A stretch of DNA of 6,883 nucleotides from a bacterium (GTDB taxonomy: Bacteria; UBP15; UBA6099; DSWB01), in NCBI GenBank assembly GCA_020061125.1, contig JAGUYV010000361.1:1-6883 (forward strand), given 5' to 3'. Position numbers and translations under genes: made by a program. Below, piece by piece: positions 350-5,655 of this stretch. The notes beneath the pieces are model-generated. The model made no database searches, was not told the DNA's origin, and saw only the letters and a program-made list of their open reading frames with translations. How positions within the stretch are numbered: the stretch's first letter is position 1; each line of letters begins with the position of its first letter.

Positions 350-409
350 ATGTTATCAAGATCGCGCATAGTGCTGCCGGGAATCGCGTATCATGTCACC
401 CAGCGCGGG
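350..409 (+). pseudogene. RAYT (REP-associated tyrosine transposase) N-terminal remnant
   Basis: The frame from ATG 350 begins MLSRSRIVLPGIAYHVTQRG. This matches the characteristic N-terminus of REP-associated tyrosine transposases of the Y1/HUH (IS200/IS605-like) superfamily, where an RxRIVxPG-xxxHVTQRGN block leads into the first beta strand. After the RG the similarity stops: the expected asparagine, the HUH histidine pair and the catalytic tyrosine are all absent. The reading frame stays open to 901, but that part runs through duplicated repeat DNA in what appears to be the wrong frame. No ribosome binding site precedes the ATG. I read it as a broken transposase whose relatives may once have spread the surrounding REP hairpins. 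Confidence 0.75.
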
Positions 410-500
410 TACATGATTTTGCTGCAACACACGGCACATTCTCTGCAACGCAACCACAACGGCGCGGTGCGCTTCTGCATCCCGTATTTGCATATAACAA

Positions 501-626
501 ACGGTAAGCGCGGTGCTGTTGAACAACCCCAGCCTCCCTGTTTATTCCATCGCATATCTCAAAGCACTTCTCGACCGTCTGCTCAAACCGGGAAAAAGAG
601 GGCCAAAAAAGGAAAAAGAGGAATAA
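501..626 (+). pseudogene. Transposase-like C-terminal tail, copy 1
   Basis: The frame starting at ACG 501 reads TVSAVLLNNPSLPVYS, then AYLKALLDRLLKP, a basic lysine-rich end, and TAA at 624-626. An upstream TAA at 495-497 closes the frame, so only the last 41 codons survive. A basic tail ending directly at an element tip is what the 3' end of an insertion-sequence transposase gene looks like. I cannot name the family from this fragment, and a RAYT C-terminus is only one possibility. The longer overlapping frame from ATG 350 is less likely to be the true one, because differences between the two copies are mostly synonymous or conservative in this frame. Confidence 0.5.
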
Positions 627-643
627 TTAAGTATGGTGTCCCC
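624..643 (+). repeat. Element-tip motif, copy 1
   Basis: TAATTAAGTATGGTGTCCCC begins at the stop codon of the first transposase-like tail. Its reverse complement, with small changes, occurs at 2704 and 2958. The position just after a transposase-like tail suggests it is the right terminal repeat of an insertion element. Confidence 0.65.
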
Positions 644-668
644 GAAACTCCGTTTTTGCGCATAACTA

Positions 669-794
669 ACGGTAAGCGCGGGGTTGTTGAACAATCCCAG
701 CTTCCCTGTTTATTCCGTCGCTTATCTCAAAGCACTTCTCGACCGCCTGCTCAAACCAAGAAAAAGAGAGCCAAAGAAGGAAAAAGAGGAATAA
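669..794 (+). pseudogene. Transposase-like C-terminal tail, copy 2
   Basis: This is the duplicate of the tail at 501-626, reading TVSAGLLNNPSFPVYSVAY and ending in TAA at 792-794. In this frame the coding parts of the two copies differ at eleven positions. Six of these are synonymous, and the rest include conservative changes (Leu to Phe, Ile to Val). The frame is again closed upstream by TAA (663-665). Confidence 0.5.
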
Positions 795-811
795 TTAAGT
801 ATGGTGTCCCC
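792..811 (+). repeat. Element-tip motif, copy 2
   Basis: This site is identical to the motif at 624-643. It faces the inverted copy at 2704-2722, and the minus-strand AT-rich gene lies between the two. Confidence 0.7.
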
Positions 812-830
812 AAAACTCCTCAAAACTCCT

Positions 831-2444
831 TTATTGTCGTTTCATCATTTCCTTATTCAGCTTCTTCCAGTGTTCAAGTTTATTCATTTCTTCCTCATTA
901 ATGCTGAAAAAATAAACGAAGCCTTTGTTCAATCTCTGTGTTCTTCGGTAATTAAAATGCGAAATCAAACCAGTGTCCAATCTTTGTATTCGTCGGCCTG
1001 TGAAATGCAATGTGTATCTTGATTTATTATATTTGTCGAGGATTTTATACTTGTCGAACTCACATCGATTTAGTCCATAATAATCTATGTCCTTCGCCGC
1101 TTTCAAAGAATCATATTTTAGCTCATCCATTAGCGTTACTGTGGTATCGCATGGAACAATGTTTTTATCGATAAAAACCATAGTTCGGCAGGAATAAATA
1201 GTGCAAAGAAATGTCGATAACTCTCCATCAGCATGGGGTAAGATCGGGTATGTGCGTGTATTTCTTTCTATGGGTTTAGACATGAATTTGCCCGCATTTC
1301 TTACGCTTTCAGGCCCGAATGAACATGTCTTATTACCATATATGCCAAACTTTAGCGCTTTAGCCGTCGCTGCAGCCTTTTTCAAGTCGGCTGTGGCATA
1401 CTCACATCCATGAGCGTATCCAGCGGCGCACATTTCTTCAGTCACGCTTTTCAGTTCGCCTTCGTTATCAATCAAATAGATGCGTGCTTCGGATATTGCA
1501 TTGAGCATTTTTACGACTCCAAATTCAACAATTACTTGTTTTCCGACGATGGTCTGGACTAAAAAATCATGCGCTTTAACACCGCAAGGCTCTTCGTTCT
1601 TAAGTGTGAACTCTGCCTGGAACCTGTCTGATGGATTTGAAAAATAATTGTCTATGTAGTACGCGTCCGGCAGGCGAATGTCCATTAACCTAACATACCA
1701 TGTCTGCTCGCCGTCTTTTAGATTCTCAACAATTTCTATGACATTATCTGGATAGACACAACGAACAGTGAATTGAGATTCCACTGGTGTTGAACGAAGG
1801 CGATTCGCGATCTTGATGAAATTGTCTATGTCTTGAATAGAGATATGACCACGATATTTAGAAGCGCGCATAACCGATTTGTCACGCTTGGAGAACTCTC
1901 CTAATAGATTCTTCCATTTCAATTCATGATGGCTGATGCCAAAATGCCGCATGAGAAATCCGTTGAAGGCGTTGATGTTTGGAAAGTACAGGTATTTCTT
2001 ATTTGCATCGATAGAAAAAAAGGCAAATGCGGGATCATCATTGTTAAATCTATCGAACACCGAACCATCAGATGCAGACAAAATGAACATGGTTTTTTTA
2101 TACTCTGCATAAGCTAGCAATTTATTTCCTTGAATGTTACTTTCACCGATAAGCCTACAAAAGTGAGGAATATCCATGGCCGTGCTCAAACAGATATCGA
2201 CTTCGTTCGACAAGTGAACAACTTGCGCATACATCGGATTTTCGTATGAGTTGAGCTTTTTGCAATTCCAAACAGCTGTCAGCGCTGGAACTATACTTAT
2301 GGCAATGAGGAAATAATTTGTTTTCATATTTATTGCGTAAGAAATAAGCGCCGCTAAAAGAAAAATTGCGCTAAGGCCTAAGAACAGCCCTTGTCCGACA
2401 ACATAAGAGAACCCCTCAAATGGACCGCCGGTAGATTCAATCAT
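831..2444 (-). CDS. Membrane-anchored SNase-like (staphylococcal nuclease fold) protein, probably catalytically degenerate
   Basis: The product has 537 residues from ATG 2444. That start has GGAG (2456-2453) eight bases upstream, whereas the in-frame ATG at 2465 has no visible Shine-Dalgarno sequence. Two hydrophobic segments (about 15-38 and 43-59) followed by a Lys-Lys pair suggest a hairpin anchor with a cytoplasmic body. Residues about 225-370 follow the SNase/thermonuclease layout: a strand ending in PDNV where the family has DGDT, YVRLMDIRLPD at the RL-x-x-x-D-x-PE site, AHDFLVQTIVGKQVIVEF, then VTEEMCAAGYAHG and a final ADLKKAAATAKALKFGIYG helix. Aligned by eye, the Arg35 equivalent is kept (R252). 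The Asp40 equivalent is Arg257, Glu43 is Asp260, and the Arg87 site is Ala320 or shifted to Arg321. DNA cleavage is therefore doubtful. Residues 60-224 and 371-537 are not recognised. The C-terminus contains a 16-residue repeat and a charged tail. The gene is clearly AT-richer than its neighbours and stands alone between repeats, which suggests lateral acquisition. Confidence 0.75.
   Translation of the reverse strand: MIESTGGPFEGFSYVVGQGLFLGLSAIFLLAALISYAINMKTNYFLIAISIVPALTAVWNCKKLNSYENPMYAQVVHLSNEVDICLSTAMDIPHFCRLIGESNIQGNKLLAYAEYKKTMFILSASDGSVFDRFNNDDPAFAFFSIDANKKYLYFPNINAFNGFLMRHFGISHHELKWKNLLGEFSKRDKSVMRASKYRGHISIQDIDNFIKIANRLRSTPVESQFTVRCVYPDNVIEIVENLKDGEQTWYVRLMDIRLPDAYYIDNYFSNPSDRFQAEFTLKNEEPCGVKAHDFLVQTIVGKQVIVEFGVVKMLNAISEARIYLIDNEGELKSVTEEMCAAGYAHGCEYATADLKKAAATAKALKFGIYGNKTCSFGPESVRNAGKFMSKPIERNTRTYPILPHADGELSTFLCTIYSCRTMVFIDKNIVPCDTTVTLMDELKYDSLKAAKDIDYYGLNRCEFDKYKILDKYNKSRYTLHFTGRRIQRLDTGLISHFNYRRTQRLNKGFVYFFSINEEEMNKLEHWKKLNKEMMKRQ
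921..1016 (-). repeat. 48-bp tandem duplication inside the SNase-like gene
   Basis: Two diverged copies lie 48 bp apart: CAATCTCTGTGTTCTTCGG starts at 930 and CAATCTTTGTATTCGTCGG at 978. In the protein this gives two 16-residue repeats, GRRIQRLDTGLISHFN followed by YRRTQRLNKGFVYFF. The period is a multiple of three, so the frame is kept. It sits just before the charged C-terminal tail. Confidence 0.7.
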
Positions 2445-2489
2445 ACAGTTATCTCCGATTGTCATTACTTGAATTGCTCAGACACAATG

Positions 2490-2723
2490 CTAATTAGCCC
2501 TTTATTCGGTGCCGGATACAATGGATGGTCGGTGAAATCAAAACCCCTTTCGCAAGAACATTCGTATTACTGGCGATTATATGCAGATCTGGGTACAATG
2601 TATATAAACGGCGACGGTTCGCGCGATGAGGTTGATCTCTATGCAAGCAATGAATTTTACGGCGGTAATATGGAAGGAAGAGGCGGGGTATGTCTGGAAT
2701 TATGGGGACACCATACTAATTAG
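2490..2723 (+). other. Orphan reading frame ending inside an element tip
   Basis: The + strand frame is open from well upstream. From ATG 2490 it gives 78 residues starting MLISPLFGAGYNGWSVKS, with an acidic middle, NGDGSRDEVDLYASNEFYGG. Its last codons (WGHHTN and stop) are supplied by the element tip at 2704-2722, so any original gene has been truncated there. No ribosome binding site precedes the ATG, and the frame partly overlaps the 5' region of the divergent SNase-like gene. The composition looks protein-like, but I recognise no family. It may be a relic fragment or chance. Confidence 0.3.
2704..2722 (-). repeat. Element-tip motif, inverted copy 1
   Basis: GGGGACACCATACTAATTA is the reverse complement of the motif at 792-811 with one base missing. 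Together the two form an inverted pair enclosing the SNase-like gene and the orphan frame. Confidence 0.7.
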
Positions 2724-2803
2724 AAATTTAAAATTGTAAAAACAAATCAAAATAAGGAAGTAGAAATTCAGGGACGCTGGGGCTGTTGATAGAGCCTTGC
2801 GCC

Positions 2804-2872
2804 GGAAAAAACGCGGGACAGACAAGGTTTTGCTATCGCAAAACGCACCCAGTCCCGGTGTTTTTCCTCACT
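2804..2872 (+). repeat. REP-like hairpin, subtype A, right copy 1
   Basis: This is a 69-bp inverted copy of 1-69 with two substitutions. The stem GTTTTGC/GCAAAAC is intact around a TATC loop, and the outer arms GGGAC (2815) and GTCCC (2852-2856) are kept. Confidence 0.8.
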
Positions 2873-2957
2873 TTTGCTCATTTGCGGTACTTGGAAACGC
2901 AGCGAAGAAAATCAAATATCGAGGGGGGCTGTTGAAGAAGCCCGGCGGGGGAATTAT

Positions 2958-2976
2958 GGGGACAGCATACTAATTA
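2958..2976 (-). repeat. Element-tip motif, inverted copy 2
   Basis: GGGGACAGCATACTAATTA is the second inverted copy of the tip motif and differs from the copy at 2704 by one base. It opens the second 254-bp unit. Confidence 0.65.
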
Positions 2977-3057
2977 GAAAGCCTTCATTGTGATAACGAA
3001 TCAAAATGAGGAAGTAGAAATGCAGGGACGCTGGGGCTGTTGATAGAGCCTTGCGCT

Positions 3058-3126
3058 GGGAAAAACGCGGGACAGGCAAGGTTTTGCTGTCGCAAAACGC
3101 ACCCAGTCCCGGTGTTTTTCCTCACT
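3058..3126 (+). repeat. REP-like hairpin, subtype A, right copy 2
   Basis: This is a 69-bp inverted copy of 1-69 with one substitution, making it the closest match to the left copy. Stem and arms are intact around a TGTC loop. Confidence 0.8.
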
Positions 3127-3288
3127 TTTGCTCATTTGCGGTACTTGGAACCACGGCGAAGAAAATCATAACGATTTGTTCAACGGTCCCACAGGCCCGG
3201 TTTAATCCAACATTTGCTGTGAGTTCTGCGTTCGCAAAAATCTGGGGCCGGGGGCTGTTGAAAAAGCGCGAGGGGCGAAAGAATCCTG

Positions 3289-3954: not shown

Positions 3955-5214
3955 TTGCGGACAATACCTGTCAGGACCATAAACGCGTATCACCTTGCGG
4001 CGCTGGCCTATCTGGCGCTGGCCGCGGGTTGCGGCGCGATCATCGCCGCGCACGCTTCGCCGGACCTGCAGGTGAGCGGCTGGTTCATCCTGCACGCGCA
4101 CCTGGCGTTCATGGGCTTCGGCACGCTCACCGTGCTGGGCACGCAGAAAGTGCTGGCCGCGCATGTGCGCGCCGGGTGGGACGGGTTCACGCCGGGCGCC
4201 ATGCCGGGCGCGCGCTTCCTGGCCGCCATCACGCTGTGCCTGGCCGGGATCTGGGCCATGTACCTTGCCCAGGGCCTCACCGGCAACAACGCCTTTTACA
4301 TCGGGGGCATGGCCGCCGCGGCCGGGGTGCTCGCCTGCCTTGCCGTTTACACCGCCCGCCTCTACCGCGGCATCACCCTTGCCACTCTGCGCCGCAACAT
4401 GCCCGCCCGTTTCTTTCTCACTTCCATGTTCATCTGCTTTCTGGCCTACGGGCAGCTCATCTACATCACCGCTTTCAATTTCCTGCCCTGGCTGCCCTTT
4501 TCCCACACCATGCCCCTGCGCGTGAACTACCTCGCGCTGTCCTTCCCGCTTTCCCTCACGGTCATGGCCTGCATCCGCATGCCTTTCCACCTCAAGGACG
4601 AGAGTCTGAAAAAAGCGCGCTTCAAGCCCCTGTGGGAATCCCAGTACGCCATCCTCGTGGCCGGCGTGTTCTCCCTGTTCTTCTCTCTCATTTTCGACTC
4701 CCCGCATTTTCACGATGTGTACACCGTGCTGCAGGCCGCGTTCTCGGGCATCCTGTTTTTGAGCATCCTGCTGCTGATCGGGGCCATGATCACGGACCGC
4801 CGGGCGGACCGCTCCCTGCCCTGGGGCATCTGGCGCTTGTATGTATCCGCCGTGGCCTATCTGTTCCTGGCGGGCATCGCCGGGTTCCTGCTCGGCTACG
4901 GGTGGAACCGGCAGGGGCCGGAATACTATTTCCTCATCCAGGCGCACATCCACCTCGCGCTGCTGGGCTGGATCGGGTTCGGGCTGACGGGCGTGTATTC
5001 CTATCTTCTGCACATGGCCGGGCGCGCCGCGTGCCGCCACGGAAGCCTGAATTTCTGGCTCATGCACGCGGGAGTAGTTATCATGCACCTTGGCATCTGG
5101 TATAAAAGCTGGGCGCTGCGCGGCGCGGCCGGCGCGTGCGTGGCCGCCGCGGCCCTCACCCTCATGTCCTGCGCCGCAGGAGAATACCGCCTCAAGCGCG
5201 GCCATTCCGTTTAG
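3955..5214 (+). CDS. 12-helix membrane protein with paired His-x-His motifs (heme-copper oxidase subunit I-like or NnrS-like)
   Basis: The protein has 419 residues. The start is TTG 3955, with GGAG (3944-3947) seven bases upstream; the next in-frame ATG would delete the first helix and most of the second. I count about twelve membrane segments (approximately 12-33, 41-66, 88-106, 113-133, 152-174, 190-207, 231-249, 256-279, 292-315, 326-352, 364-383, 387-406). Two helices carry a matching motif: LHAHLAFMGFGTLTVLG (46-62, H47 and H49) and QAHIHLALLGWIGFGLTG (329-346, H331 and H333). H371 and H378 lie in a late helix. Such in-membrane histidines are typical of heme ligands in Cox1-like proteins and of NnrS. 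I do not see the complete copper and heme ligand set of a true oxidase. It follows the Rrf2 gene by 103 bp, and I see no convincing terminator between them. A role in nitric-oxide or redox stress is inferred from this pairing. Confidence 0.7.
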   Translation: MRTIPVRTINAYHLAALAYLALAAGCGAIIAAHASPDLQVSGWFILHAHLAFMGFGTLTVLGTQKVLAAHVRAGWDGFTPGAMPGARFLAAITLCLAGIWAMYLAQGLTGNNAFYIGGMAAAAGVLACLAVYTARLYRGITLATLRRNMPARFFLTSMFICFLAYGQLIYITAFNFLPWLPFSHTMPLRVNYLALSFPLSLTVMACIRMPFHLKDESLKKARFKPLWESQYAILVAGVFSLFFSLIFDSPHFHDVYTVLQAAFSGILFLSILLLIGAMITDRRADRSLPWGIWRLYVSAVAYLFLAGIAGFLLGYGWNRQGPEYYFLIQAHIHLALLGWIGFGLTGVYSYLLHMAGRAACRHGSLNFWLMHAGVVIMHLGIWYKSWALRGAAGACVAAAALTLMSCAAGEYRLKRGHSV

Positions 5215-5274
5215 CACCGCAGAATTGTTTCATTTTCAGCCGATATAATTAAAAAATCACTGCTGGCAAATATC

Positions 5275-5304
5275 TTTTCGCGGGGTTCCGCTTTGTGGTA
5301 TAAT
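5275..5304 (+). promoter_or_regulatory. Extended -10 promoter of the small ORF at 5311
   Basis: TGG-TATAAT gives a perfect -10 hexamer at 5299-5304 with the extended TGn element. The -35 region (TTTTCG, 5275-5280) is weak, as is common with extended -10 promoters. The -10 box ends six bases before ATG 5311, so transcription would begin at or next to the start codon. A second TATAAT at 5244-5249, in the same AT-rich gap, has no recognisable -35. Confidence 0.6.
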
Positions 5305-5310
5305 GACTCC

Positions 5311-5655
5311 ATGAGCGCCGCGGCCGGTTATTCCCTGTGCGATCTTCTGTCCATGCCCACGCAGAGCAGCTACTGCTTTTTCGCGCAGGACAAAAGCGGC
5401 GAGGGCGAGATTGACATCCTGGGCCGGCTCGACCCCAACCAGTTTTTCAGCTACCAGCACCTGTTGCGCGACATCAATGTGAACTACGGCTACATGCTGC
5501 CGCGGGGCGATTACCGCGTGGTGTTCGCGGCCAGCCCGGCGGCGTTCCCCACGCTCAAGGCCGGAATGCCCGAGCCGATGCGGCACGCCGTGGTGCGTTC
5601 GCCCCGCCTCGAGGGCCACGAGTTCGTGGCCGTTTACTATTTCGACCCCGAGTGA
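5311..5655 (+). CDS. Small hypothetical protein, unrecognised
   Basis: The product has 114 residues starting MSAAAGYSLCDLLSMPTQSS. An in-frame TTG at 5293 would add six residues, but it lies under the promoter, so ATG 5311 is preferred. No Shine-Dalgarno sequence precedes the ATG, which agrees with a leaderless message. There is no signal peptide or membrane helix. The middle (GEGEIDILGRLDPNQFF) is acidic and the end (EFVAVYYFDPE) looks like a beta strand, so a small soluble alpha/beta protein is likely. GC-rich third positions match the neighbouring genes, which supports real coding. I recognise no family. It ends about 200 bp before the esterase gene, and both lie in the same reading frame. 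Confidence 0.65.
   Translation: MSAAAGYSLCDLLSMPTQSSYCFFAQDKSGEGEIDILGRLDPNQFFSYQHLLRDINVNYGYMLPRGDYRVVFAASPAAFPTLKAGMPEPMRHAVVRSPRLEGHEFVAVYYFDPE

Follow-up and report, generated by a model that had tools for sequence, protein, structure and literature searches.

The gene at positions 831 to 2444 of the minus strand encodes a predicted membrane-anchored protein of 537 amino acids (P0001), whose residues ~222 to 372 (positions 1329 to 1781, minus strand) are staphylococcal nuclease (SNase)-like and are predicted to form an OB-fold domain with a degraded active site. The window, which is the whole stretch of 6,883 nucleotides analyzed here, is the entire contig C70 of a fragmented genome (513 contigs, 79% complete). 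Taken together, the observations point, at about even odds in our judgment, to an accessory protein of the mobile genome that would act as a noncatalytic, membrane-anchored binding protein. The open reading frame, the SNase similarity, the residue losses, the AT-rich patch, and the element ends were observed directly; the topology, the loss of catalysis, the binding, and a role in genetic conflict are inferred.

The frame starts with an ATG at position 2444 and stays open for 537 codons up to the stop codon at positions 831 to 833, and a GGAG ribosome-binding site lies 12 nt upstream of the ATG. In 1,000 composition shuffles the longest open reading frame was 184 amino acids, against 537 for P0001. 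Because the frame is intact, the gene is probably maintained. The initial annotation had described an anchor of two N-terminal helices, which agrees with the hydropathy of the protein: a transmembrane helix was found at residues ~13 to 38 and a second, weaker one at residues ~43 to 61 (positions 2262 to 2408, minus strand). A single-sequence AlphaFold2 model, which was of low confidence, placed helices at residues 8 to 39 and 44 to 65. The two hydrophobic stretches likely form an N-terminal hairpin, as judged from the sequence, and because the second helix is followed by two lysines (KK), a cytoplasmic location of the soluble part is favored.

The two regions flanking the SNase-like domain, residues 62 to 221 (positions 1782 to 2261, minus strand) and residues 376 to 537 (positions 834 to 1319, minus strand), are both basic, with 21 K+R and 16 D+E in the former and 29 K+R and 20 D+E in the latter. 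Neither region matched a family in Pfam, PADLOC, or PHROGs-type profile searches, so the earlier description of two unrecognized flanking domains stands. Since the single-sequence AlphaFold2 prediction of the full-length protein was uninformative (pLDDT 36), there is no reliable model for these regions. Matches of P0001 to a holin (PHROGs), LysM2, and MOSC were judged to be chance and were rejected. The C-terminal region contains a 16-residue tandem repeat, RRIQRLDTGLISHFNY / RRTQRLNKGFVYFFSI, at residues 484 to 515, which was also seen at the DNA level (positions 900 to 995, gene on the minus strand).

The similarity of the central ~145 residues to staphylococcal nuclease, which had been noticed by eye, was recovered by Pfam, our own profile, MAFFT alignments, and a structural model. 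Pfam family PF00565 matched residues 251 to 368 with an E value of 0.01 and 16.7 bits; because this score is below the curated cutoff of 21 bits, the SNase membership of P0001 is a statement of statistical homology and not a Pfam call. In a profile scan of the genome, PF00565 gave P0001 20 bits. We also built an independent profile, which started from the S. aureus nuclease as seed and comprised 47 SNase domains from other genomes; P0001 scored 18.8 bits with it, versus 7.8 bits for the best of 5,000 shuffles. Profiles restricted to canonical cellular or to viral SNases gave 15.0 and 10.7 bits, respectively, and the best of 3,000 shuffles reached 7.6 and 6.6 bits. The HMM signal came mainly from residues 280 to 370; for the first three strands and the R35/D40/T41/E43 region, we relied on the model, on the alignment given by Pfam, and on two alignments made with MAFFT. 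A single SNase-like stretch and no Tudor match were found in P0001 with Pfam and our SNase profile.

The structure of residues 219 to 375 was predicted by AlphaFold2 with an alignment of 54 SNases from viral contigs. The model had an SNase-type OB fold with a mean pLDDT of 85.9 and a pTM of 0.82, and the pLDDT was ~90 or above over most of both halves. Because the alignment consisted of SNases, the model is partly circular and shows compatibility with the fold, not independent proof of it. In superposition by VIA-align (Z 14.6 to 15.7), SND1 (4qmg) was the top match with a Z score of 15.7 over 139 residues at 3.0 Å, and the entries of the S. aureus nuclease followed with Z scores of 14.6 to 14.8, so that the lead of SND1 over the latter entries was around 1 Z unit or less. 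Foldseek agreed with VIA-align. A search for PDB sequence matches to P0001 gave none apart from a single weak match, which was a short helix.

We then compared P0001 at the catalytic set of active SNases (D21, R35, D40, T41, E43, and R87). Only R35 was clearly kept in the Pfam, MAFFT, and viral alignments, and the substitutions were D40 to R, T41 to L, E43 to D, and D21 to N. In the 54 viral SNases, D19, D21, R35, E43, and R87 were invariant and D40 was D or N; at the columns of the five invariant residues, P0001 has P, N, R, D, and K, respectively. The equivalent of R87 was not found: depending on the alignment, the residue is K, S, or E, and its status is uncertain because there is a gap at that position. 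Alignment to cellular SNases showed the same losses and put E in the R87 column. An Asp sits one residue away from the D21 position, so D21 could be retained if the register were shifted. These results match the initial annotation, which had read Arg and Asp at the calcium-binding and general-base positions and had considered the second catalytic arginine to be replaced or shifted; proper alignment did not restore an intact active site. SNase-type catalysis by P0001 is unlikely from its sequence, and we rejected a nuclease annotation for the gene because the active site is lost. This loss of activity is not certain, because the RNase activity of Caenorhabditis elegans Tudor-SN survives the loss of most SNase catalytic residues (PMC5900569). 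The SNase-like domain also has a net charge of about -6 to -7, and this acidity speaks against the domain itself binding nucleic acid.

The overall layout of P0001 raises the alternative that it is an active membrane-bound nuclease with a remodeled active site, which would cut incoming DNA or RNA at the membrane as SNIPE does. SNIPE is a catalytically competent anti-phage membrane nuclease with DUF4041 and GIY-YIG domains (PMC13190303), and P0001 would share with it an N-terminal membrane anchor, a middle region, and a nuclease-fold domain, with basic extra regions completing the resemblance. The Asp one residue from the D21 position, the replacement of E43 by another acidic residue, Asp, and the activity of Tudor-SN with a reduced residue set are in favor of this alternative. 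In contrast, the Arg that replaces D40 brings a positive charge into the metal site, and R87 and T41 are lost. In addition, the nuclease fold of SNIPE is a different one and its defense role is known, whereas Pfam and PADLOC found neither DUF4041 nor GIY-YIG in P0001, and PADLOC gave no match of the protein to any anti-phage defense model. A SNIPE-like role is attractive by layout, yet it would require an active cutter, and we regard it as unlikely. Because most of the residues required for cutting are lost, P0001 probably binds rather than cuts.

Domains that retain the SNase fold and have lost catalytic residues have a precedent in Tudor-SN (PMC5900569, PMC4277250). Like the SN domains of Tudor-SN (SND1), P0001 combines the SNase fold with the loss of most catalytic residues, and 4qmg appears to be its best structural match according to the model; in contrast, Tudor-SN is eukaryotic and soluble, combines a Tudor domain with SN domains in tandem, and still cuts RNA with parts of its chain. 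Compared with the S. aureus/thermonuclease family PF00565, P0001 has the OB barrel and helices in the same order and keeps the equivalents of Arg35 and Pro42. It differs from these nucleases in the equivalents of D40, T41, E43, D21, and R87, in an extra loop past the E43 position and a shorter loop before the last helix, and in the N-terminal membrane hairpin and the two extra regions. Altered catalytic residues are no rarity among SNase-like domains, as shown by N6/N4 DNA methyltransferases of the same bacterial order and other lineages that have a C-terminal SNase-like domain without the catalytic residues (L081, L082, L083, L084, L087, L092, and L096; Pfam was run on L081, L087, L092, and L096). 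These fusions resemble P0001 in the loss of catalytic residues and in their occurrence in the same order, but they have a methyltransferase part and no membrane hairpin. A special kinship of P0001 to the methyltransferase-fused SNases was rejected, as their profile gave 7.0 bits versus 8.2 bits for the best shuffle.

The gene lies in a patch of 40% GC, versus 62 to 64% GC for the genome, and the adjoining genes of 62 to 64% GC encode an Rrf2 regulator, a membrane protein, and an esterase. This patch sits between inward-facing ends of Y1-transposase elements (left, positions 1 to 817; right, positions 2696 to 3168), which confirms and refines the mobile island that had been proposed for it. On the left, an open reading frame at positions 350 to 901 begins with the remnant of the N terminus of a REP-associated tyrosine (Y1) transposase, SRSRIVLPGIAYHVTQRG (positions 350 to 411, plus strand), and the right end of the element is present as a tandem duplication of 168 bp with AATTAAGTATGGTGTCCCC near the end of each copy (positions 482 to 817, plus strand). 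On the right, the inverted element end GGGGACACCATACT... with its repeat is present in two copies that are 91% identical (positions 2696 to 2914 and 2950 to 3168, plus strand). With up to two mismatches allowed, the end motif AATTAAGTATGGTGTCCCC had 18 matches in this genome, no control matches, and one match in the other six genomes of the phylum. A GC-rich repeat, CGGGACTGGGTGCGTTTTGCG..., also has inverted copies around the patch (positions 2799 to 3126 and 1 to 74) and occurs at many places in the genome, often at contig ends. The locus is like RAYT elements in having a remnant of a Y1 transposase gene and inverted repeated ends beside the gene, and unlike them in that the ends bracket unrelated AT-rich genes, an arrangement for which a shallow literature search found no described precedent.

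A forward end followed by a reverse end was found at seven places in the genome, with intervals of 0.4 to 2.5 kb that bracket differing genes (the window, L039, L042, L044, and L046 to L048). The GC content was 32 to 40% in five of the seven intervals and 48% and 54% in the others. The bracketed genes are unrelated to one another: the L039 interval encodes a three-helix protein of 224 amino acids, and the L042 interval encodes a multihelix protein of 323 amino acids. In L046, a 261-amino-acid protein with a weak match to the CXXCG family (Gmx_para_CXXCG) adjoins an intact Y1_Tnp gene (PF01797, E value 3.6e-12) beside the shared end sequence, whereas the window holds a remnant only. Among the further AT-rich genes, which lie beside single ends, are those for a membrane protein of 207 amino acids (L177), for a protein resembling DUF2019 (L043), and for a NucS-like nuclease that matches the PADLOC phage defense candidate PDC-S11 (L049, E value 1.4e-16). 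Many of the AT-rich orphan genes in the sister patches of this genome encode membrane proteins. The PDC-S11-matching nuclease lies together with two uncharacterized proteins in a three-gene AT-rich patch of contig C31 (L049, positions 4014 to 5584; L187, positions 1014 to 3239). At some element ends, partial duplications occur in a stuttered form, such as two to four copies of TGTCCCCAAAACTCC (L043, positions 1842 to 1959; L044, positions 5330 to 5361; L046, positions 1253 to 1320; L047, positions 1244 to 1280); these ends look as if elements had repeatedly inserted at their own ends. The elements may move AT-rich genes or may merely accumulate in AT-rich patches; one genome fits either.

Given this company, an immunity-type role of P0001 is possible by analogy. 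In its specific form, P0001 would be a membrane protein of the orphan immunity or antitoxin-like type and would neutralize an incoming toxin or prophage function, with the SNase-like domain mimicking or binding a nuclease or its substrate. The single AT-rich genes at the same ends encode small or membrane proteins with weak DUF2019 and Gmx_para_CXXCG matches, and a basic partner could bind to the SNase-like domain, which is acidic. Both of these family matches are, however, below the curated cutoffs, no toxin partner was found in the window, and P0001 is unusually large for an immunity protein; we give this form a low probability. A bolder proposal is that Y1-transposase ends of this lineage capture or carry single AT-rich foreign genes as exchangeable cassettes in which membrane-anchored conflict proteins are frequent, with P0001 as a membrane sensor that would use a dead SNase domain to detect invading nucleic acid, or a protein of a phage or toxin, at the membrane; it is in our view rather improbable.

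With the whole protein and pieces of it as queries, no homologs of P0001 were found in scans of genome contigs and viral contigs or by tblastn in plasmids and phages, nor were any found in 98 related genomes, in the seven-genome phylum, or in ~600 genomes of three other phyla (those of G034, G058, and G046). The lone match in the other phyla was a transmembrane stretch with internal stop codons and was rejected as a relative. Several of these searches were pattern based and reach close relatives only, so distant relatives may still exist. With no homologs, no conservation backs any functional residue of P0001. The gene could be read as foreign DNA that no longer has a function and is in decay, with the C-terminal repeat and the lost catalytic residues as early signs, and its position among degraded transposase remnants, the absence of relatives in these searches, and the tandem duplication of the element ends fit such a history. 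However, the frame has a good ribosome-binding site and is open over 537 codons, and it is at the active site that the substitutions are concentrated, with a fold-determining pattern that is still compatible with the model, which makes decay a rather unlikely account. A resemblance to SNase that arose by chance or from a generic OB fold is very unlikely, because the subthreshold Pfam score, the HMM coverage of chiefly the C-terminal half, and a model made from an SNase alignment are outweighed by a profile score well above the maximum of 5,000 shuffles, by 14 to 15 bits with profiles free of degenerate members (above all shuffles), and by the high pLDDT in both halves.

The reading that we prefer, a noncatalytic binding protein, can be outlined as follows. 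P0001 would be a horizontally acquired accessory protein that its N-terminal helical hairpin anchors in the inner membrane, with ~475 residues probably on the cytoplasmic side. The SNase-like domain, presumably devoid of metal binding and general-base chemistry, would act at the face of the membrane as a noncatalytic module for binding protein or nucleic acid, and the basic flanking regions may make contact with nucleic acid or lipid. Given the acidic SNase part and the basic flanks, the simplest guess is protein binding by the former and contact with nucleic acid or lipid by the latter. The gene would be carried between Y1-transposase (RAYT-type) element ends like other AT-rich orphans, a setting that fits a selfish or conflict-type gene. 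A defense or immunity role is plausible by analogy, with indirect support from the PDC-S11 candidate and the weak immunity-like or DUF matches in the other AT-rich patches at these element ends. Of the interpretation first given for this gene, the fold, the altered residues, the two helices, the flanking regions, and the mobile island were all supported, and the binding or sensing role keeps the conditional form in which we state it here.

Tudor-SN of eukaryotes is the main known source of SNase-like domains without catalytic residues. A bacterial version tethered to the membrane would be a further application of this fold, and AT-rich orphan genes between the ends of transposase elements could mark a path for the spread of accessory genes in this poorly sampled phylum.
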